A stretch of 64,000 nt of DNA. It comes from Lachnospiraceae bacterium (lineage in GTDB: Bacteria > Bacillota > Clostridia > Lachnospirales > Lachnospiraceae). The stretch spans positions 127,733-191,732 of the forward strand of contig JAGBEO010000001.1 in assembly GCA_017936885.1 (NCBI GenBank), given 5' to 3'. This document shows, one piece after another, positions 55,958 to 64,000 of the stretch. The notes under the pieces were generated by a model. It did no database searches. It was given only the letters and a program-made list of their open reading frames with translations, and had not been told where the DNA came from. Numbering within the stretch: position 1 is the first letter of the stretch; every line of letters starts with the position of its first letter. Position numbers and translations under genes: made by a program.

Positions 55958-56172
55958 CTACAGCATCTACCGTTAAAAAACGCGTATTTACGCTAATTAT
56001 TGTGGTTTTGCCAGAAATTCACAAATATTTCACAGCCCCTTACCATGAAATTATACCAAGTTATGCCGCCTTATCAAGGAGATATAAATCGTAACATTTT
56101 TGCAACAAATTGGTGCTCTATGTCATAATTATATGAATGAAATCTGAATACGTTCCGCGCATTTACTGCTGT

Positions 56173-57081
56173 TTAGGATAAATACCGTTCCACACCGGCG
56201 ACCGCACAGGCACCGTCTGCCACTGCCGTCACGATCTGGCGCACCTGCTTGGTTCTGATATCTCCTGCCGCAAAGATGCCCGGAACGCTGGTAAGGCAAT
56301 CCTCTCCCGCTATCAGATAACCGGATGCATCACGATCTATCATTTCACAAAAGCCTCCTGTGTTTGGACGCATACCGATCGCAATAAAGACTCCTTCTAC
56401 GTCTAATCTGCTGTCCGTACCATCTGTCACAGAATGTAACATCACGCCGTCCACCAGATCACTTCCGCAAATCCCGGACACCGTCTGATTCCAGTGCAGT
56501 TCCACATTCTCACAGGCAAAGAGCTTATCCTGCAGGCTCTTAGCCGCCCGCAGGCTGTCACGCCTGTGAATCAGATGGACTTTGCGGCACATGCGGGAGA
56601 GATACACTGCATCCTCTACCGCCACATCACCACCTCCAACCACTGCCACATCTCTTCCCTTGAAAAAAGCACCGTCGCAGGTAGCACAATAGGATACACC
56701 TTTTCCTTTAAACTCCTTCTCTCCCGGCACATTCAAAAGAGTATGCCCGGCCCCCATGGCGAGGATCAGGGTCTTGGCTTCATACACGCTGCCGTCGGCG
56801 GTCTCTACGATCTTAATGTCATTCTTCCCGCTCATGGCGGTCACTGCTGCCTGCTTGAACACTGCACCCATGGTCTGTGCATGTTCCTTAAATTTCATAC
56901 CCATATCAAAGCCGTTTATCCCCGGCATCCCCAAATAATTATCCACCTCGTAAGTATTGAGAACTTGTCCGCCGCTCATTGGATTTTGTTCTAACACAAG
57001 CAATTTCAGTCCGGCACGCATACCGTAAACTGCGGCAGATAAACCCGCCGGCCCGGAACCGATAATGATAAGATCGTACAT
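56173..57081 (-). CDS. trxB: Thioredoxin reductase
   Basis: A 302-residue NADPH- or ferredoxin-dependent flavoprotein that keeps thioredoxin reduced. The FAD motif is MYDLIIIGSGPAGLSAAVYG, the redox-active pair is in SYCATCDGAFF, the second Rossmann motif is VVGGGDVAVEDAVYL, and the FAD C-terminal motif is GIFAAGDIRTKQVRQIVTAVADG. The start is the ATG at 57081 behind GGAGG; the open frame extends 24 codons further but without a ribosome binding site. No thioredoxin gene is adjacent. Confidence 0.93.
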   Translation of the reverse strand: MYDLIIIGSGPAGLSAAVYGMRAGLKLLVLEQNPMSGGQVLNTYEVDNYLGMPGINGFDMGMKFKEHAQTMGAVFKQAAVTAMSGKNDIKIVETADGSVYEAKTLILAMGAGHTLLNVPGEKEFKGKGVSYCATCDGAFFKGRDVAVVGGGDVAVEDAVYLSRMCRKVHLIHRRDSLRAAKSLQDKLFACENVELHWNQTVSGICGSDLVDGVMLHSVTDGTDSRLDVEGVFIAIGMRPNTGGFCEMIDRDASGYLIAGEDCLTSVPGIFAAGDIRTKQVRQIVTAVADGACAVAGVERYLS

Positions 57082-57367
57082 ATTTTTTCCTCCATTCTTC
57101 TGCCTGTTATCTGACTGCCCCTTAACTGTCTGACAGCAATAGATTGACAGCATTTATCCTTTAGTATTTACCTTTTCTTACACTTTCATTTGTGTGATAT
57201 CATGGCACTTTTTCTTTTGATTTTATTATGTTATATTCATTATGTAACACAATACATCAGGTGTCAAAAAGTTCTTTGCACTGTTTCACTACGCAAATCT
57301 GCTCATGCAGCAATGCATCTGCACTAATTTCACAGCGCATGGGCCAAACATGATAAGGAGAAATGAT

Positions 57368-58102
57368 ATGACCGATATAGTCAAAAGAAAACACGCACTT
57401 GTGACAGGCGCGTCACGCGGCATCGGTGCTGCTATTGCCGAAGCTTTGGCAAAAGAAGGATACGACCTGTATATCACTTGTAAACACTCTGCAGAAAAAC
57501 TGACAGATTTGTCAGAATACTTGACAGACACATACCGCATCTCCTGTGTACCTGTCATTGCTGATATGGGAAATCCGACTGATGTAGCAAAGCTGTTTTC
57601 ACAAATAAATGATTTGGACGTGCTGGTCAACAATGCCGGCATTTCCTATGTGGGACTCCTGCACGAAATGAGCATCGATGAATGGCAGAATGTAATGCAG
57701 ACGAATTTAAGTTCCATGTTCTATACAAGCAGACTCGCCATTCCTGTGATGCTGCGAAAGAAAAGCGGCAGAATCATCAATATTTCCTCTGTGTGGGGCA
57801 ATGTCGGCGCTTCCATGGAAGTGGCTTACTCTGCCTCCAAGGGCGGTGTAAACAGCTTCACCAGGGCACTTGCCAAGGAACTGGCTCCGAGTCATATCCA
57901 AGTCAATGCCATCGCCTGCGGTGTCATCGATACGGATATGAATCAATGCTTTTCAAAAGAAGATATGGAAGCACTTCGCGAAGAAATCCCTGCTGACCGA
58001 ATAGGCCAAGCATCAGAAGTCGCCCAAATGGTACTTTCTGTCTTACATGCACCGGAATATATGACCGGACAAGTCATCACACTGGACGGCGGCTGGATCT
58101 GA
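57368..58102 (+). CDS. SDR family reductase (YmfI/FabG-like)
   Basis: A 244-residue short-chain dehydrogenase. The cofactor motif is ALVTGASRGIGAAIAEAL, with NNAGISYVG, the catalytic Ser in INISSVWG, and YxxxK in AYSASKGGVN. The C-terminal DRIGQASEVAQMVLSVL and GQVITLDGGW are standard. The sequence DLYITCKHSAEKL and the missing C-terminal extension resemble the 5-aminopentanone reductase (YmfI) that modifies elongation factor P, but a FabG role cannot be excluded. AAGGAG lies seven bases before the ATG at 57368. Confidence 0.85.
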   Translation: MTDIVKRKHALVTGASRGIGAAIAEALAKEGYDLYITCKHSAEKLTDLSEYLTDTYRISCVPVIADMGNPTDVAKLFSQINDLDVLVNNAGISYVGLLHEMSIDEWQNVMQTNLSSMFYTSRLAIPVMLRKKSGRIINISSVWGNVGASMEVAYSASKGGVNSFTRALAKELAPSHIQVNAIACGVIDTDMNQCFSKEDMEALREEIPADRIGQASEVAQMVLSVLHAPEYMTGQVITLDGGWI

Positions 58103-58112
58103 AACAGAACCT

Positions 58113-59471
58113 TTATGCCGCCCTCTCTTTCCCGGGCAGTCTGTGTAACACCACGAAGTAACTGATTACCAGCACCACATCCGCTCCGGTCCATGCCGCA
58201 ATCTCAGCGAAGAAAATCCCCGTCTTTCCTACCGCCAACGGCAGAAGCAGCGCAGTCAAAGTTCTCATAAGAAATTCCACAATACCGGACACCATGGGAA
58301 GCACCGTATTTCCCATACCCTGAATGGCAGATCTGGTCACATGCAGAATATATAATATAGGAAGACATACACTCATAACAGCCAGATAGAAATAGGCAAT
58401 CTGCATCGTCTGTTCCGCCACTTCCGGTGTCCCGGATATGAAAAGCCCCAGTATATTTCTTCCGAATATCAACATCACTGCCGCAATGACAGCAGACGTC
58501 GCAAGGGAAATTCCCACCGCAGCCCGCATACCGCTGCGAATACGGTCATATTTGCCCGCGCCGAGATTCTGACCGACATAAGTTACCATGGCATAGCCAT
58601 AGGAGATCGCGGCAATCTCCAAAAGCCCATAGAGTTTGTTGGTTGCCGTAAAGCCCGCTATGAAGATAACACCGAATCCGTTAACCACCGACTGTACAAT
58701 CATGCCTCCCACAGAAATAATTGCATTCTGAAATGCCATGGGCAGCCCCAGATAAAACAGCTTGCCGACCAGATTCGAATCGGGTATATAATCTTCTTTT
58801 TTCAAAAGAATAAAATCTATCTTTCTGATATGATAAAAACAATACAGGCTTGAAATTCCCTGTGCTATCACAGTCGCTGCAGCGGCGCCTGCGATTCCCC
58901 ACTGAAACACCATGACAAATATCAGATCCAGCCCAATATTGATCAGTGCCGCCACAACCATCGCATGCAGCGGTGTCTTACTGTCTCCCAAAGAGCGCAG
59001 GATACCTGCCAGAAGATTGTACGCCAGCACCACCGGAATCCCTATAAATATAATACGCAGATACAGCAGGGTATCACCGAGAATCGTATCTGGCGTCCGT
59101 AAGAGCCTGAGTATCGGCTCACAAAATATCTGTCCAGCACACAACAGCAGTACTGCCGAAAACAGAGACAGCATAATGGCATTGCCGATGACTTTCCGCA
59201 AGGAATCCAATTGTTTTGCTCCAAACTCCTGCGCCATCAAAATGGCAAATCCCTGTGCCAATCCCTCAATGACGCCCAGAAAAAGCCAGTGCATCCACTC
59301 TGCCGCACCCACCGCAGCCAAAGCGTCTACTCCCAGATATTTTCCAACCACCATCGTATCTACAACCGTATAGAGTTGTTGAAACACATTTCCCAGTGTC
59401 AACGACAAGGCAAATGTCAATATCAATTTTGAAGGTTTTCCCTCTGTCATTTCCTTAATGTGCGCTGCCAT
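58113..59471 (-). CDS. MATE family efflux transporter
   Basis: A protein of about 452 residues with twelve predicted helices. It begins MAAHIKEMTEGKPSKLILTFALSLTLGNVFQQLYTVVDTMVVGKYLG, the standard MATE opening. It repeats the pattern in the second half (LGLPMAFQNAIISVGGMIVQSVVNGFG, FTATNKLYGLLEIAAISYGYAMVTYVGQNLGAGKYDR). MATE proteins export drugs or metabolites using Na+ or H+ gradients. It ends 10 bp from the convergent SDR gene. It is divergent from a related MATE gene. Confidence 0.9.
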   Translation of the reverse strand: MAAHIKEMTEGKPSKLILTFALSLTLGNVFQQLYTVVDTMVVGKYLGVDALAAVGAAEWMHWLFLGVIEGLAQGFAILMAQEFGAKQLDSLRKVIGNAIMLSLFSAVLLLCAGQIFCEPILRLLRTPDTILGDTLLYLRIIFIGIPVVLAYNLLAGILRSLGDSKTPLHAMVVAALINIGLDLIFVMVFQWGIAGAAAATVIAQGISSLYCFYHIRKIDFILLKKEDYIPDSNLVGKLFYLGLPMAFQNAIISVGGMIVQSVVNGFGVIFIAGFTATNKLYGLLEIAAISYGYAMVTYVGQNLGAGKYDRIRSGMRAAVGISLATSAVIAAVMLIFGRNILGLFISGTPEVAEQTMQIAYFYLAVMSVCLPILYILHVTRSAIQGMGNTVLPMVSGIVEFLMRTLTALLLPLAVGKTGIFFAEIAAWTGADVVLVISYFVVLHRLPGKERAA

Positions 59472-59652
59472 AATGATAAGATCCCTTTGCATGATTTTGA
59501 CTTACGATTCAAAAGTCTTGTGCAATCGTATCATATAATACTAAAATGTACAATACGTTCTCTTGCACTCTCATTCTGTAAAAACTATAATAAAAATTAA
59601 AGCACTTTCTTATCACATATAATCTTATCACATATAAAAAGAAGGATTCATT

Positions 59653-61020
59653 ATGACTATGACACAGACCAAAACAGAAACAATGACCGAGGGCAATTCC
59701 CTCCAACTGATCTTAAAATTTGCGCTGCCGCTGTTATTAGGCAACCTGCTGCAGCAGACCTATAATATGGTGGATGCCGCTATCGTAGGACGATATCTGG
59801 GTACTGACGCACTTGCCAGTGTTGGTGCTTCCAGCAGTGTACAGTTCCTTGTCATGGGCTTCTGTATCGGCATCTGCTTAGGGTTCGCCATCCCCGTGGC
59901 ACAGCGCTTCGGTGCCGGAGATCATAAATCGATGCGGGAATATATTTTTCAGGGTGCGGTTCTTGCCGCAGAACTTGCTGCATTCTGCACCATTTTATGT
60001 GCTATCCTATGCCCGGATATTCTGCACCTTTTGTCTACTCCGGACAACATTTACGACAATGCCTATGCTTATCTGTTCGTACTGTTCTTAGGCATACCTT
60101 TTAATATTCTCTATAATTTTCAGGCAAGTATCCTGCGTGCCGTCGGCAACAGCAAGACACCGTTCTTCTTCCTTGCGTTCTCCACGGTACTGAATATTTT
60201 CCTGGATCTGCTGTGTATCATCGTCTTTCACTGGGGCTGCCGCGGTGCCGCGATTGCGACCATTACTGCTCAGGCAGTCAGCGGTATCTGCTGTTTCTTT
60301 TATATAATGAAGAAATACGAATTTCTCCATCCCCGCAGAGAAGAAATGTGTCTGGAAAATCATAAAATCGGTACTCTTCTTGCCATGGGACTTCCCATGG
60401 GGCTGCAATTCTCCATCACCGCTATCGGCAGTATGGTGATGCAGTCTGCCAACAACAGCTTAGGCTCTGTCTACGTCTCAGGCTTTACCGCAGGTGCCAG
60501 AATCAAGCAGTTCGCCATGTGTCCTTTCGATGCTATCGCCACTGCTGTTTCCACTTTCTGCGGGCAGAATCTGGGAGCCGGCAAATATGACCGTATTAAA
60601 CAGGGTATCCGGCAAGGTGCCATTGTAGGTGTATCTTATGGCGTTTTCATCGGTCTGGTACTGATTTTCTTCGGCAGAACACTGTCTTTACTTTTTATAA
60701 GCGGTACAGAAACAGCTGTTCTGGATGCTTCCGCCAAATATCTGCGCTGTATGGGATATTTCTACTGGGCACTTGGCATCTTAAATGTATTCCGTATGAG
60801 TACGCAGGGATTAGGGTATTCCGGACGTGCCGTATATGGCGGCGCCATAGAGATGGTTGCCCGAATCGTTGTGAGTGTATTCTTCGTACCGGTTTACGGC
60901 TATACCGCGATCTGCTTTGCAGACCAGTGCGCGTGGGTATCTGCCTGCCTGTATATCGTCCCTACCTGCCTGTTGTGTCTGAAGAAAGCGAAAAAAATGT
61001 GCTCCGGGGTTCCTTCATAG
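59653..61020 (+). CDS. MATE family efflux transporter
   Basis: A 455-residue, twelve-helix transporter with the same opening pattern (MTEGNSLQLILKFALPLLLGNLLQQTYNMVDAAIVGRYLG) and internal repeat (MGLPMGLQFSITAIGSMVMQSANNSLG, then CGQNLGAGKYDRIKQG). It is a clear paralogue of the divergently encoded pump; the intergenic distance is 181 bp. AAGGA precedes the ATG. Its last codons lie in the stem of a terminator. Confidence 0.9.
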   Translation: MTMTQTKTETMTEGNSLQLILKFALPLLLGNLLQQTYNMVDAAIVGRYLGTDALASVGASSSVQFLVMGFCIGICLGFAIPVAQRFGAGDHKSMREYIFQGAVLAAELAAFCTILCAILCPDILHLLSTPDNIYDNAYAYLFVLFLGIPFNILYNFQASILRAVGNSKTPFFFLAFSTVLNIFLDLLCIIVFHWGCRGAAIATITAQAVSGICCFFYIMKKYEFLHPRREEMCLENHKIGTLLAMGLPMGLQFSITAIGSMVMQSANNSLGSVYVSGFTAGARIKQFAMCPFDAIATAVSTFCGQNLGAGKYDRIKQGIRQGAIVGVSYGVFIGLVLIFFGRTLSLLFISGTETAVLDASAKYLRCMGYFYWALGILNVFRMSTQGLGYSGRAVYGGAIEMVARIVVSVFFVPVYGYTAICFADQCAWVSACLYIVPTCLLCLKKAKKMCSGVPS

Positions 61021-61039
61021 TTCCCCGGAGTTTTCTTTT
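61002..61039 (+). terminator. Terminator overlapping the end of the MATE gene
   Basis: CTCCGGGG (61002-61009) pairs with CCCCGGAG (61023-61030), followed by TTTTCTTTT. The stop codon of the gene (61018-61020) lies in the loop. Confidence 0.8.
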
Positions 61040-61097
61040 GCCCGAAACACTTCTTTCGTCTCTCATAGAAAGTTCTCTCCTGTTTTCAGAGCAGCTC

Positions 61098-61313
61098 TTA
61101 TACTTCTGCGGAAGGTTCCTCTTCTTCCCAAAACAGTTCGTCCAACGTCTTGCCAAGCACACGGCAGATGGAACGGCACAGCTTGATTGTCGGGTTATAG
61201 TCTCCCTTTTCTATGGCATTCATCGTCTGTCTGGACACACCTACTGCGTCCGCAAGCTGTTGCTGGGACATATCAAGGGCCGCCCTCGCCGCCTTTAATC
61301 TCAGGTTCTTCAC
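61098..61313 (-). CDS. Small XRE family regulator
   Basis: A 71-residue single helix-turn-helix protein (LRLKAARAALDMSQQQLADAVGVSRQTMNAIEKGDYNPTIKLCRSICRVLGKTLDELFW). This compact type is usually encoded with a small membrane protein carrying a YDERQ motif, as here; the genes overlap as ATGA. It probably represses its own operon through the paired 18-bp operators upstream of the partner gene. Confidence 0.9.
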   Translation of the reverse strand: MKNLRLKAARAALDMSQQQLADAVGVSRQTMNAIEKGDYNPTIKLCRSICRVLGKTLDELFWEEEEPSAEV

Positions 61314-61852
61314 TCATCTTCCTCCTTTGAACGGACATCTGCTTTACTTATCTTCCACCTTTTGGCAACAATAACAACCAGCATTGCAAGGAAAAGCAGT
61401 GCACACAAAGCGTTCATGGCACTGATCCCAAGCACACCGTCTTCGATCAACGTATCCGCCATAATATGGCTGACAACAGATAACACATTAACGATCACCA
61501 CAAGCACCATTAAGATAATCGTTTTCTTATCGTTTCCACTGATGCCAAAATAGGCATCTTTCCAGATACAATAGCCCGCAAATACACCCACTCCCAGGAA
61601 TGCACAAGCAGTAATCCCCACCGCAGGATGAATCGGTATATCGAAACCTCCCATCATCAACCCGTAAGCCAGAGAACTGATCAGCATAGCAAAAAATCCA
61701 TATTTATAACCTATCCCCTGTATAATTTTCTGCCGCTCATCATACTTTTCACTCTTAAGACCGCTTTTCTTTCTTATAACGTATACTATGGCTATAAGAA
61801 CAACCACAATAGCACAATACATTCCAAATGCATAAACATTATCGTACGTCAT
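61310..61852 (-). CDS. Small membrane protein of the DUF2178/DUF6442 type
   Basis: About 180 residues. Helices are predicted at about 5-25, 52-70, 78-98, 112-133 and 142-162. After the first helix lies KSEKYDERQKIIQGIGYKYGF, the conserved YDERQ element of this family. The start is the ATG at 61852 behind GGAGG. The gene overlaps the XRE gene by 4 nt and is first in the operon. The function of the family is unknown. Confidence 0.82.
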   Translation of the reverse strand: MTYDNVYAFGMYCAIVVVLIAIVYVIRKKSGLKSEKYDERQKIIQGIGYKYGFFAMLISSLAYGLMMGGFDIPIHPAVGITACAFLGVGVFAGYCIWKDAYFGISGNDKKTIILMVLVVIVNVLSVVSHIMADTLIEDGVLGISAMNALCALLFLAMLVVIVAKRWKISKADVRSKEEDE

Positions 61853-61981
61853 AATAACCTCCATTCTTACTCAACCTACAAATTTACATGTGTGCTCCGC
61901 GCACATTGCGTAAGGCACAAATTGTTGCATAACACAAACAAGTTCATATGAACATTTTTGTATTTCTTTCATATTACATAA

Positions 61982-62045
61982 TGTAAAATATATCTTACAT
62001 TAGTATCATATTGCTGAATCAGCATTTTGTCAAGTATATTTTACA
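61982..62045 (-). promoter_or_regulatory. Promoter with two 18-bp operators for the XRE/membrane-protein operon
   Basis: On the minus strand TTGACA (62028-62033), a 17-bp spacer and TATGAT (62005-62010). TGTAAGATATATTTTACA (61982-61999) lies just after the -10, and TGTAAAATATACTTGACA (62028-62045) covers the -35. They are variants of one inverted repeat. A further small palindrome, GCTGAATCAGC, lies in the spacer. Confidence 0.75.
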
Positions 62046-62189
62046 TTTTGCATAGACAAAGAGTTAGCCAGATAACTCGCACGCGTTAATCCGACAAGAT
62101 ATTTCCTATGGGGCTTTCCAAAGAAATTAGAAAAGAAGCTTTCTGCCAATAACTTGCAAAAAACTTCTTAATGATATTCGGAAAACTTC

Positions 62190-63440
62190 TCACAGCCAGT
62201 TGATTTTTCCCTCAAATACTATTTTGTCACTGCCCTGCGCGATGACGCCGATCTCATAGCAGTCATAGTATTTTCCGACATGTTTCATGACCCTATCCTT
62301 ATGCTCTTGCGGCACAACAAGATTAAACCCTACACCGCAGTTGAAGGTATGCAGCATTTCTTCATCACTGATGTTACCACTGTTGCGGATATACTTAAAG
62401 ATATTTAATACCCGCAGCCTGGACAAATTGATTCTGGCACACAGACCATCCGGTATCACTCTGCACAGATTGCCTTCTATGCCTCCACCTGTAATATGTG
62501 CCATTCCGTGCAATACTTCTTGATCAAACAGCTCTTTGACAGCCTTATAATAAGGCGTATGCGGTTTCATAATCTGCTCAATAAAGGTCAGACCGTCTAT
62601 CTTATCTAATTTGATCTGCGGCATTTTATCCATGAGCAGTCGTACCAAAGAATATCCATTGGTATGCAGACCATTAGACGCAATGGCTAACACAGCATCC
62701 CCTTCTTCGATCTTAGAGCCGTCTATCACCTTTGCCCTCTCTACAATTCCGGCAATACTGGAGGTCAGTACGTAGACTCCCGATTCTACTACTAAGGGCT
62801 GGATGGAGGTCTCGCCGCCCACCAGAGAACATTCATTGGCTTTGCAGGCTTCCGATATTCCTTTTACGAGGCTCTTAATGGTGTCTTTCTCTGCATTGCC
62901 GCACACAATCGTGTCCAATACCGCCAGCGGTTTTGCCCCCATAACAATGATATCATTTACAAGATGATTGATCATATCGTGGCAGATGGATTCCGTATAG
63001 CCGTATTCCATCGCCAGTTTCTGCTTGGAACCCGGTTCCTCAGACTTCAGCACAAGTACCGGATGCTTCAATTCCGGGAAGTTAATATCATACAATGACG
63101 CAAAAGGTCCTAAACCGTTAAGCACACGCCTGTCCGTGGTTTCCAAATGCTTCGCCATTTCCTTTTTGATCGTATCCGTATAGGTGATATCAATTCCGGC
63201 TTTGCCGTAGGACAATCCCTCTGCTTCTTTTTCCCTTCCGGCTAAGATCTCGTCTACTGTTACGCCGAGGGCAATTGCCAGATCATAAAGAACTTCTATG
63301 TTGGGATAGGTGGTGCCGTTTTCCCATTTGGATACTGCCTGAAAAGAAATGTTTAGCTGATCTGCAAGCTGCTGCTGGGTCATCCCTAGCTTCTTACGCC
63401 TCTCCATGATGAAGCTGCCGACTTTGATACTATTGAGCAT
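62190..63440 (-). CDS. XRE helix-turn-helix fused to a PurM-like (AIR synthase superfamily) domain
   Basis: A 416-residue protein. Residues 10-66 are a Cro/C1 helix-turn-helix (IMERRKKLGMTQQQLADQLNISFQAVSKWENG). Residues about 78-416 are a PurM/AIR synthase-type domain: SYGKAGIDITYTDTIKK, NGLGPFASLYDI, VNDIIVMGAKPLAVLD, LVGGETSIQP, ASNGLHTNGYSLVRLL, MAHITGGGIEGNLCRVIP. The nucleotide/phosphate motif DGVGTK of true PurM is replaced by EEPGSKQK, so activity may differ. The start is the ATG at 63440 behind GGGAGG. A 17-bp perfect palindrome at 63463-63479 is a likely binding site for its own helix-turn-helix. Purine-responsive control is a guess. Confidence 0.82.
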   Translation of the reverse strand: MLNSIKVGSFIMERRKKLGMTQQQLADQLNISFQAVSKWENGTTYPNIEVLYDLAIALGVTVDEILAGREKEAEGLSYGKAGIDITYTDTIKKEMAKHLETTDRRVLNGLGPFASLYDINFPELKHPVLVLKSEEPGSKQKLAMEYGYTESICHDMINHLVNDIIVMGAKPLAVLDTIVCGNAEKDTIKSLVKGISEACKANECSLVGGETSIQPLVVESGVYVLTSSIAGIVERAKVIDGSKIEEGDAVLAIASNGLHTNGYSLVRLLMDKMPQIKLDKIDGLTFIEQIMKPHTPYYKAVKELFDQEVLHGMAHITGGGIEGNLCRVIPDGLCARINLSRLRVLNIFKYIRNSGNISDEEMLHTFNCGVGFNLVVPQEHKDRVMKHVGKYYDCYEIGVIAQGSDKIVFEGKINWL

Positions 63441-63462
63441 GTCCGATACCTCCCTGTTTTTC

Positions 63463-63479
63463 ATTCTGTCTGACAGAAT
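63463..63479. promoter_or_regulatory. 17-bp perfect palindrome upstream of the XRE-PurM gene
   Basis: ATTCTGTC-T-GACAGAAT has eight-base perfect arms around a single central base and ends 23 bp before the start codon. A one-base loop cannot form a stable RNA hairpin, so a DNA operator is the better reading. Confidence 0.6.
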
Positions 63480-63621
63480 TGTGCTTTGCCGTTTCAAAAT
63501 TTGCGCTGTCGTAATGTATAGCAGATTTCTGTTCTCAGAATACCCTATCCTTGCGCTTTCCGGCAATAACCGCTTAAGGGAGTTTATCGGAGAAATTCAA
63601 CCAATAGGGGAATTGAGCAAT

Positions 63622-64000
63622 TTAATTATAATATTCCACAATATCATCCAAATTTTTCCTCGGTCTCTTAGCCGGGTGTTCGTCTTTATACCCAAGCGCA
63701 ACGGCTCCGGTTAACTGCGCCTCTGTTCCGATATACTCTGTCAGTTCCCGATAAGCAAAACAAGTATTACCGATCCACAACGTACCGACGTCTAAGGCTT
63801 CCGCCTGCAATAACATATTCTCAACCGCTGCCCCTATGGATAGCATATCATTGATTTCTGTAAATCTTTCATCTGCATTAATTGCTGTAAAAGGAGATTT
63901 CCCATTGGTATTAAGCACCATGATAATCACAGGCGCACTTTCCATGATGCGCAGCGTGTTTTCCGCATCAGGAATCCCATGCCCTGAGTCCGGCAGGCTT
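63622..64000 (-). CDS. Nitroreductase family protein, C-terminal part (runs off the window)
   Basis: The frame is open from the window edge to the stop at 63622, about 125 residues. It includes LRIMESAPVIIMVLNT, DMLSIGAAVENMLLQAEALDVGTLWIGN and ALGYKDEHPAKRPRKNLDDIV, the typical C-terminal half of FMN-dependent nitroreductases (KxRxKxLxD tail). An internal ATG at 63945 is not the start, since coding sequence of the family continues upstream of it. The substrate is unknown. Confidence 0.85.
   Translation of the reverse strand, partial: SLPDSGHGIPDAENTLRIMESAPVIIMVLNTNGKSPFTAINADERFTEINDMLSIGAAVENMLLQAEALDVGTLWIGNTCFAYRELTEYIGTEAQLTGAVALGYKDEHPAKRPRKNLDDIVEYYN

Follow-up and report, generated by a model that had tools for sequence, protein, structure and literature searches.

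A fusion of an XRE DNA-binding domain to a PurM-like enzyme domain in gut Clostridia, preceded by a conserved upstream element that suggests autoregulation

A single gene near the end of the window (the whole 64,000-nucleotide stretch of Lachnospiraceae bacterium DNA analysed here) joins a helix-turn-helix (HTH) domain of the XRE type to a domain resembling AIR synthetase, PurM. The locus raises the question of whether such a protein is an enzyme, a transcription factor derived from an enzyme, or both at once, and which genes its DNA-binding domain may address.

The fusion gene and its two domains

The coding region contained the following features.

62190..63440, minus strand: gene of the XRE-PurM fusion (416 aa), a single ORF from ATG 63440 to the stop at 62190, with a GGGAGG ribosome site
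63246..63410, minus strand: XRE/Cro-CI helix-turn-helix, residues 11-65 (PF01381 match, 67.4 bits)
62235..63212, minus strand: PurM-like domain, full length, residues 77-402 (TIGR00878 and AlphaFold2 model)
63024..63041, minus strand: EEPGSK loop, residues 134-139, corresponding to DGVGTK, residues 65-70 of E. coli PurM (phmmer alignment to 1cli)

The fusion of the two domains had been proposed by a sequence-only reading of this locus and was borne out. One open frame matched PF01381 (HTH_3, above its cut-off of 23 bits), the Pfam models AIRS (61 bits) and AIRS_C (78 bits), and the NCBIfam equivalog-domain model TIGR00878 (273.1 bits, cut-off 236.35). The most likely start is the ATG at 63440, which is preceded by GGGAGG, rather than the TTG at 63566 given by ORF calling. 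To collect orthologs, 84,980 species were scanned, each represented by a single genome; 196 stretches matched, 181 of them with a tblastn relative of the query. One scan pattern sat in the HTH, so that the stretches left aside may include some other XRE genes. Analysis was confined to the best 80. The fusion is real and not an annotation error, which had been named as the alternative: all 80 aligned from residue 1 to at least residue 393, at 71-86% identity to the window fusion, and each had an uninterrupted frame, 416-419 residues long except for one ortholog at a contig end (397). By their record names the orthologs were mostly from Lachnospiraceae and other gut and rumen Clostridia. The majority were MAGs, and named strains included Blautia parvula NBRC 113351 and Beduini massiliensis GM1. 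The mean identity to the window was higher in the AIRS part (80.5%) than in the HTH (75%). The recognition-helix region, which we take to be SFQAVSKWENG, lies in an XRE domain whose residues F33, Q34, S37, K38, W39, E40 and G42 were invariant in an alignment of 45 sequences.

An AlphaFold2 model of the fusion, built from 45 family sequences, had a mean pLDDT of 78 and a pTM of 0.69. Low-pLDDT stretches were residues 72-89, 108-120, 179-183 and 208-224, and the GGET motif fell inside these. The nearest solved structures were PurM (3m84_B, TM by target 0.87; 1cli, 0.90-0.91).

The DGVGTK motif of PurM had been described as altered, with GGET and NDI kept. The replacement by EEPGSK was confirmed, with E134, E135, P136, G137, S138 and K139 all invariant in the 45 sequences, as were GGET and the ND of NDI; the final I of NDI was variable. 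With respect to E. coli PurM (1cli), Asp65-Gly66-Val67 became Glu134-Glu135-Pro136 in the fusion (D65E, G66E, V67P). The residues corresponding to Asp94, Glu141, His190, Asn192 and His247 of 1cli are D163, E210, H259, N261 and H315, and these were invariant in the 45 sequences. His190, Asp65 and Asp94 are summarized in PMC3261824 as fully conserved in the archaeal PurMs studied and as proposed active-site residues. The first and last of these are present in the fusion as H259 and D163, and the position of Asp65 is occupied by Glu134 in the window and by Glu in all 45 aligned sequences, an acid-for-acid change. PDB titles name the Pyrococcus abyssi PurM mutants N186A and H239A, and N186 and H239 are taken here, by spacing only, as the equivalents of Asn192 and His247. 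The PurM-like domain of the fusion retains nearly all of the proposed catalytic residues and most of the site at which AIR synthetase binds ATP and FGAM.

Other PurM proteins and the EEPGSK clade

The distribution of the fusion was patchy. HTH and PurM parts were found together in 8 of 200 genomes of the window's family (G000, the window's own genome, and G014, G070, G086, G097, G107, G111 and G157), and the fusion was absent from G060, the sole other genome drawn from the same genus. In the same sample, G176 had an HTH-less relative and G131 showed the PurM part only. In that last locus (L099) the PurM part was visible from residue 71-72, the HTH being lost, broken or unassembled. Among 398 genomes of the phylum the fusion was seen in none but the window's own, and an HTH-less relative in 3. 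The 408 matching plasmid records were all below 60% identity, as were the 199 records of named phages (searched with the L216 protein, described below, as the only query); matches in the defence library were confined to the HTH part, two extending slightly past it. Where fusion and canonical PurM could be compared, their percent identities to the window were 83/78 (G014), 80/77 (G070), 85 over residues 1-317/82 (G086), 71/78 (G157), 66/81 (G107), 63/68 (G097) and 49/77 (G111). In close cases the conservation of the fusion roughly equals that of the housekeeping PurM; in others it is lower.

Across 81 fusion loci, many cut by contig ends and with genes named by eye, no gene cluster was found in more than 16 loci. 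The commonest neighbors were an ABC-transporter ATPase (16 loci) and, upstream, the ribosomal proteins S9 (12) and L13 (11), followed by an SDR on either side (11), a nitroreductase upstream (6) and a thioredoxin-reductase-like gene downstream (6). SDR-like and thioredoxin-reductase-like genes (named by eye) lay closely downstream of the fusion in L034, L050 and L053, and a similar pair was present farther downstream in the window's genome. In the window the fusion adjoins a small XRE gene (61098-61313), which overlaps a membrane-protein-like gene (61310-61864); past the small XRE gene lie two MATE-like transporter genes (58113-59492 and 59653-61020; all four genes named by eye).

The window's genome was checked for a separate, normal purM, as the earlier reading had suggested, and one was found at G000:C21:64667-65734, 34% identical to the fusion, which is therefore not the sole purM. 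Fifty fusion genomes of the 80, chosen by eye for spread, were then searched for other PurM proteins. A canonical PurM was present in 35 (423-448 bits), a divergent PurM-like protein in 14, and neither in one (G637). The divergent proteins scored up to 113 bits, far below the purM cut-off, some being half matches and one cut short. Their frames were mostly ~340-430 aa (218 aa in G617), and from weak score and length, not alignment, they are possibly of the Bacteroides type. They were seen in G614, G630, G618, G644 and G610 (L209-L213) and in G602, G606, G616, G617, G621, G626, G632, G634 and G639. A reading of the fusion as the sole PurM in 15 of the 50 genomes was rejected, since a looser threshold revealed the divergent protein in 14 of the 15. 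In 49 of 50 genomes the fusion stands beside a further PurM or PurM-like protein and is accessory. A PurL of the TIGR01857 type was found in 46 of the 50 and not in G612, G602, G632 and G637. In G637 (L076), possibly an incomplete MAG, the fusion has no evident source of FGAM, because no PurL, PurE or other PurM was found there.

A fully supported and very long branch (100/100, 2.43 changes per column) set the EEPGSK proteins apart from normal PurM in a maximum-likelihood tree built from 75 proteins. On the EEPGSK side of this branch, the 26 fusions formed a single clade (100/100), including L095, L096 and L101, in which the HTH is present; long branches meet in the tree, and the exact branching order is unsure. 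L101 (G111) fell within the clade despite loss of the EEPGSK motif itself. This fusion has lost ~50 residues in frame, including the EEPGSK-NDI core, and keeps the HTH, the remaining PurM domain and the promoter element described below (22 of 29 positions); the loss may be an assembly error. Outside the fusion clade stood the HTH-less EEPGSK proteins, four bacterial (L100, L104-L106) and three from viral contigs (L215-L217). In the viral-contig search only these three of 80 kept loci exceeded 38% identity, and five of the other 77 that were examined were normal PurM. The three viral contigs were 83-195 kb long (genes at L215:6001-7017, L216:5998-6993 and L217:5998-6972). In L215 the PurM-like gene follows an NAD+ synthase gene, and in L216 a macro-domain gene lies a few genes upstream.

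Fusions from all 50 genomes scored above the TIGR00878 cut-off, as did seven HTH-less members. In G281, G239 and G406 an HTH-less EEPGSK protein was the only PurM found (other matches at most 31 bits), and PurE was present in all three. PurL of G406 passed TIGR01857 with 1131 bits, in pieces; G281 and G239 had a 946-aa PurL-like frame that reached neither of the two model cut-offs (417-427 bits against TIGR01736, cut-off 526). Since the EEPGSK protein is the sole PurM found in these genomes beside PurL-like proteins and PurE, the EEPGSK type can probably make AIR, and by their sequences and gene content the HTH-less members look like working AIR synthases.

The very long branch may reflect a changed function. 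That the fusion is a PurM-superfamily enzyme acting on some other substrate, by which it would be autoregulated, seems distinctly unlikely to us. It would account for the length of the branch, for the three replacements in the loop and for a fusion in G637, where PurL and PurE were not found, and one viral HTH-less member follows the NAD+ synthase gene. This neighbor is a single case, however, and the passing of TIGR00878 by fusions and HTH-less members alike, together with the three genomes that have PurL-like proteins and PurE and show only the EEPGSK type, speaks against another substrate.

The upstream element, its putative operator and possible targets

The region upstream of the fusion gene contained the following features.

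63463..63479, no strand: 17-bp palindrome ATTCTGTC-T-GACAGAAT, in the predicted 5' leader, 22 bp from the start codon
63537..63542, minus strand: predicted -10, TATTCT, 21 bp after GGTTATTG, at the family spacing
63564..63585, minus strand: second conserved block, AAACTC-N8-GGTTATTG, overlapping the predicted -35
63596..63612, minus strand: putative operator O1; the family consensus is TTCAACC-N3-GGTTGAA, and the window has TTCCCCT-ATT-GGTTGAA, with a diverged left half

The palindrome at 63463-63479 had been put forward as a natural autoregulatory site. Its letters are present and perfect, but such a role is improbable, and it was rejected as the main operator: it lies downstream of the predicted promoter, was not found conserved, and palindromes of this size occur at a chance number. 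With arms of at least 8 and a spacer of up to 4, the window contained 8, compared with 6, 9, 10, 3 and 3 in five mononucleotide shuffles. That it serves in the leader as an operator or a translational hairpin is, in our estimation, very improbable. The exact word is rare in shuffles and stands close to the start codon, and its half GACAGAA also occurs in four other leaders; within the last 200 nt upstream, however, this half was found in only 5 of 87 fusion genes including the window's, at varying places.

A conserved element of 49 bp begins 85 bp upstream of the palindrome. It reads TTCAACC-N3-GGTTGAAT-N9-AAAYTC-N8-GGTTATTG, followed after 20-21 bp by TATnAT, and in the window it occupies 63564-63612, just after a nitroreductase-like gene (named by eye). 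The upstream regions of 87 fusion genes were compared (the window, the 80 orthologs and 6 from the survey of family genomes, with a few near-copies among them). Within 300 nt upstream and ungapped, at least 18 of the 29 fixed positions were matched in 84 of the 87 and at least 21 in 80; in 20 mononucleotide shuffles per region, 18 was reached in 15 of 87 cases and 21 in none. The 84 genes would thereby carry a palindromic site in their own promoter, as expected of XRE regulators, the palindrome of the window being half diverged. Four elements scoring 18-19 had, by eye, a one-base change in spacing. A predicted TATnAT-like -10 lay at 20-21 bp past the element in 81 of 84, and the final seven letters, GTTATTG, were nearly invariant; the upstream regions were otherwise unlike each other. 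The three misses were a gene with the element ~320 bp upstream (L058), a gene at a contig end with 160 nt upstream only (L078), and L085, where the element lies before a Cof-type HAD phosphatase gene (L085:4875-5821) that overlaps the fusion start. The HAD phosphatase and the fusion form an apparent two-gene operon.

Outside the upstream regions (80 ortholog loci, 1.78 million positions, both strands) 12 matches of at least 20/29 were found: the displaced element of L085 (24), 7 reverse-strand reads of the fusions' own operator and 4 others, all at 20-21 except that of L085. The HTH-less relatives (4 bacterial, 3 viral-contig) scored 13-16/29 in the 300 nt upstream, and the normal purM of the window's genome scored 15/29. 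By sequence, the element is tied to the clade that bears the HTH. In the window, the right half of O1 and the second block form a perfect consensus with a single occurrence (up to 3 mismatches) in the 3.57-Mb genome. The window's O1 alone at 3 mismatches was not above chance. The second block alone, at up to 2 mismatches, also had a match in 43 of 100 shuffles, so its weight rests on family-wide conservation and on the longer pattern. A reading of the operator as an RNA hairpin was rejected: among 64 distinct sites, pairing between the half-sites did not exceed what independence predicts, which fits a site in DNA and not a hairpin. No RNA family was found by an Rfam scan of 56000-64000 at gathering thresholds.

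Targets beyond the fusion promoter were searched for in nine fusion genomes with TYCAACYNNNRGTTGAAT, allowing at most 1 mismatch, and with the reversed pattern as control. Perfect operators were present in five of the nine genomes, all at fusion genes, and the fusion site of G603 had 1 mismatch. The fusion's own, diverged site was unmatched in G000, G596 and G597, and the search is blind to equally diverged targets elsewhere, including any pathway genes of the kind that BzdR controls. Other near matches were about as many as in the control (11 distinct sites in 12 rows, compared with 7); 9 lay inside mechanically called ORFs (at least 80 aa) and 2 were intergenic, before other XRE genes (G596, G600). 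At the G600 site the wider element was partly matched (22/29). The visible target would be the fusion gene itself, perhaps with sister XRE genes. A regulator with no target but itself must have some further output, an argument for a function of the PurM domain.

At L152:1501-2449 and L149:1501-3017, XRE genes whose recognition helix resembles that of the fusion had an O1-like site upstream; they may point to a wider XRE group that shares the operator. Further XRE genes of the same helix class numbered 2 and 3 in the fetched loci, a biased sample, as two were fetched via the operator search. The closest other HTH of the window's genome (L006) had no O1-like site above 10/15.

We consider it an even proposition that the fusion is an autoregulated, ligand-responsive enzyme of the PurM type. 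The autoregulation is suggested by the conservation of the element; ligand, catalysis and sign of control are what we infer. The XRE domain, as a dimer or tetramer, would bind the 49-bp element before its own gene. PurM is a dimer, and a dimer of the fusion would present two HTHs to the element. The 17-bp symmetric O1 would be centered near -74 of the predicted transcription start, and the second block would overlap the -35, a placement that would suit activation or repression; our slight preference is for self-activation, given the weak appearance of the -35 and the location of the upstream block, at a place where activators bind. Because the PurM-like domain keeps most of the ATP and FGAM site, occupancy of this site probably sets DNA binding, by which the fusion would adjust its own amount. 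As physiological output we envisage the enzyme itself, which would most likely carry out accessory chemistry of the AIR-synthase type beside the housekeeping PurM. Several observations weigh against this proposal: O1 of the window has a diverged left half and by itself is no better than chance, the operator search passed over the fusion's own site in three of nine genomes, the fusion of G637 has no evident FGAM source, the PurL-like frames of G281 and G239 score below the model cut-offs, the very long branch may reflect a changed function, Asp65 is Glu throughout the alignment, and with another PurM or PurM-like protein in nearly all fusion genomes the activity is not obviously needed.

The last two of these points would favor a sensor that has lost catalysis, in which the PurM domain binds a ligand of the purine pathway (FGAM, AIR, ATP or ZTP) and controls transcription in the manner of BzdR. 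This we regard as unlikely. The remodeled loop, the retention of the fusion in G637 without a visible purine pathway, and the BzdR precedent as summarized in PMC3602430 support it. No regulon was seen, however: perfect operators occurred only at fusion genes (with diverged sites missed), and most near matches fell inside called ORFs. The other catalytic residues are invariant, and in three genomes no PurM was found apart from an HTH-less EEPGSK member. The earlier claim of a regulator that senses a purine-type ligand goes beyond the evidence; its XRE-PurM fusion with probable autoregulation is supported by sequence comparison. The observations suit an autoregulated enzyme no less well than a pure sensor.

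A wider scenario, which we offer tentatively as possible, is that a PurM-clade enzyme captured an XRE domain and its operator-promoter in a single event and then spread among Clostridia of gut and rumen as a self-contained metabolic switch, which would read the occupancy of its own active site (FGAM/ATP or AIR) and control only its own synthesis, with catalysis as the sole output.

Comparison with known systems

The XRE-PurM fusion is widespread in gut clostridia and apparently undescribed. No Pfam or NCBIfam model for the architecture was found among the matches listed (all 18 for Pfam, the best 25 of 38 for NCBIfam), and among the open-access PMC matches listed, judged by title and opening of the abstract, none described a regulator built in this way, in agreement with the sequence-only reading. 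If the wider scenario holds, the fusion would to our knowledge be the first transcription factor of the PurM family. The family itself offers a clear example of an enzyme that has acquired apparent control over its own transcription, with one fusion clade, extant HTH-less relatives and one element before nearly all fusions examined. If catalysis persists, it would represent a one-gene feedback loop on a step of the purine pathway in gut and rumen bacteria, and possibly a genetic sensor of FGAM or AIR. The deep EEPGSK clade passes the standard purM model, and its members would probably receive the annotation of plain purM.

With PurM/AIR synthetase (TIGR00878; E. coli PurM, 1cli, 9jzw) the fusion shares a full-length domain above the cut-off, the same fold and the equivalents of His190, Asp94, Glu141, Asn192 and His247. 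It differs in the change of Asp65 to Glu, the EEPGSK loop, its separate deep clade, the N-terminal XRE domain and its accessory status in 49 of 50 genomes. NadR, BirA and PutA are bifunctional enzyme-regulators, in which an enzyme with a DNA-binding domain regulates by its own ligand. They control pathway genes, whereas the visible target of the fusion would be its own promoter and its enzyme part is PurM-like. The human Zincore with SEPHS1 is a eukaryotic multi-protein complex and is not known to carry a fused HTH. As far as its entry (PDB 9hjt) describes, it resembles the fusion in that a member of the PurM-like superfamily is part of a complex bound to DNA.

Enzyme-derived regulators are already known as a kind from BzdR, which, as summarized in PMC3602430, consists of an XRE DNA-binding domain and a shikimate-kinase-like effector domain, controls benzoate-degradation genes and has lost its enzyme activity. 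On that description, BzdR and the fusion share an N-terminal DNA-binding domain and an enzyme-derived C-terminal domain. The fold is shikimate-kinase-like in BzdR and PurM-like in the fusion, which, unlike BzdR, seems to target its own gene and keeps most of its catalytic residues.
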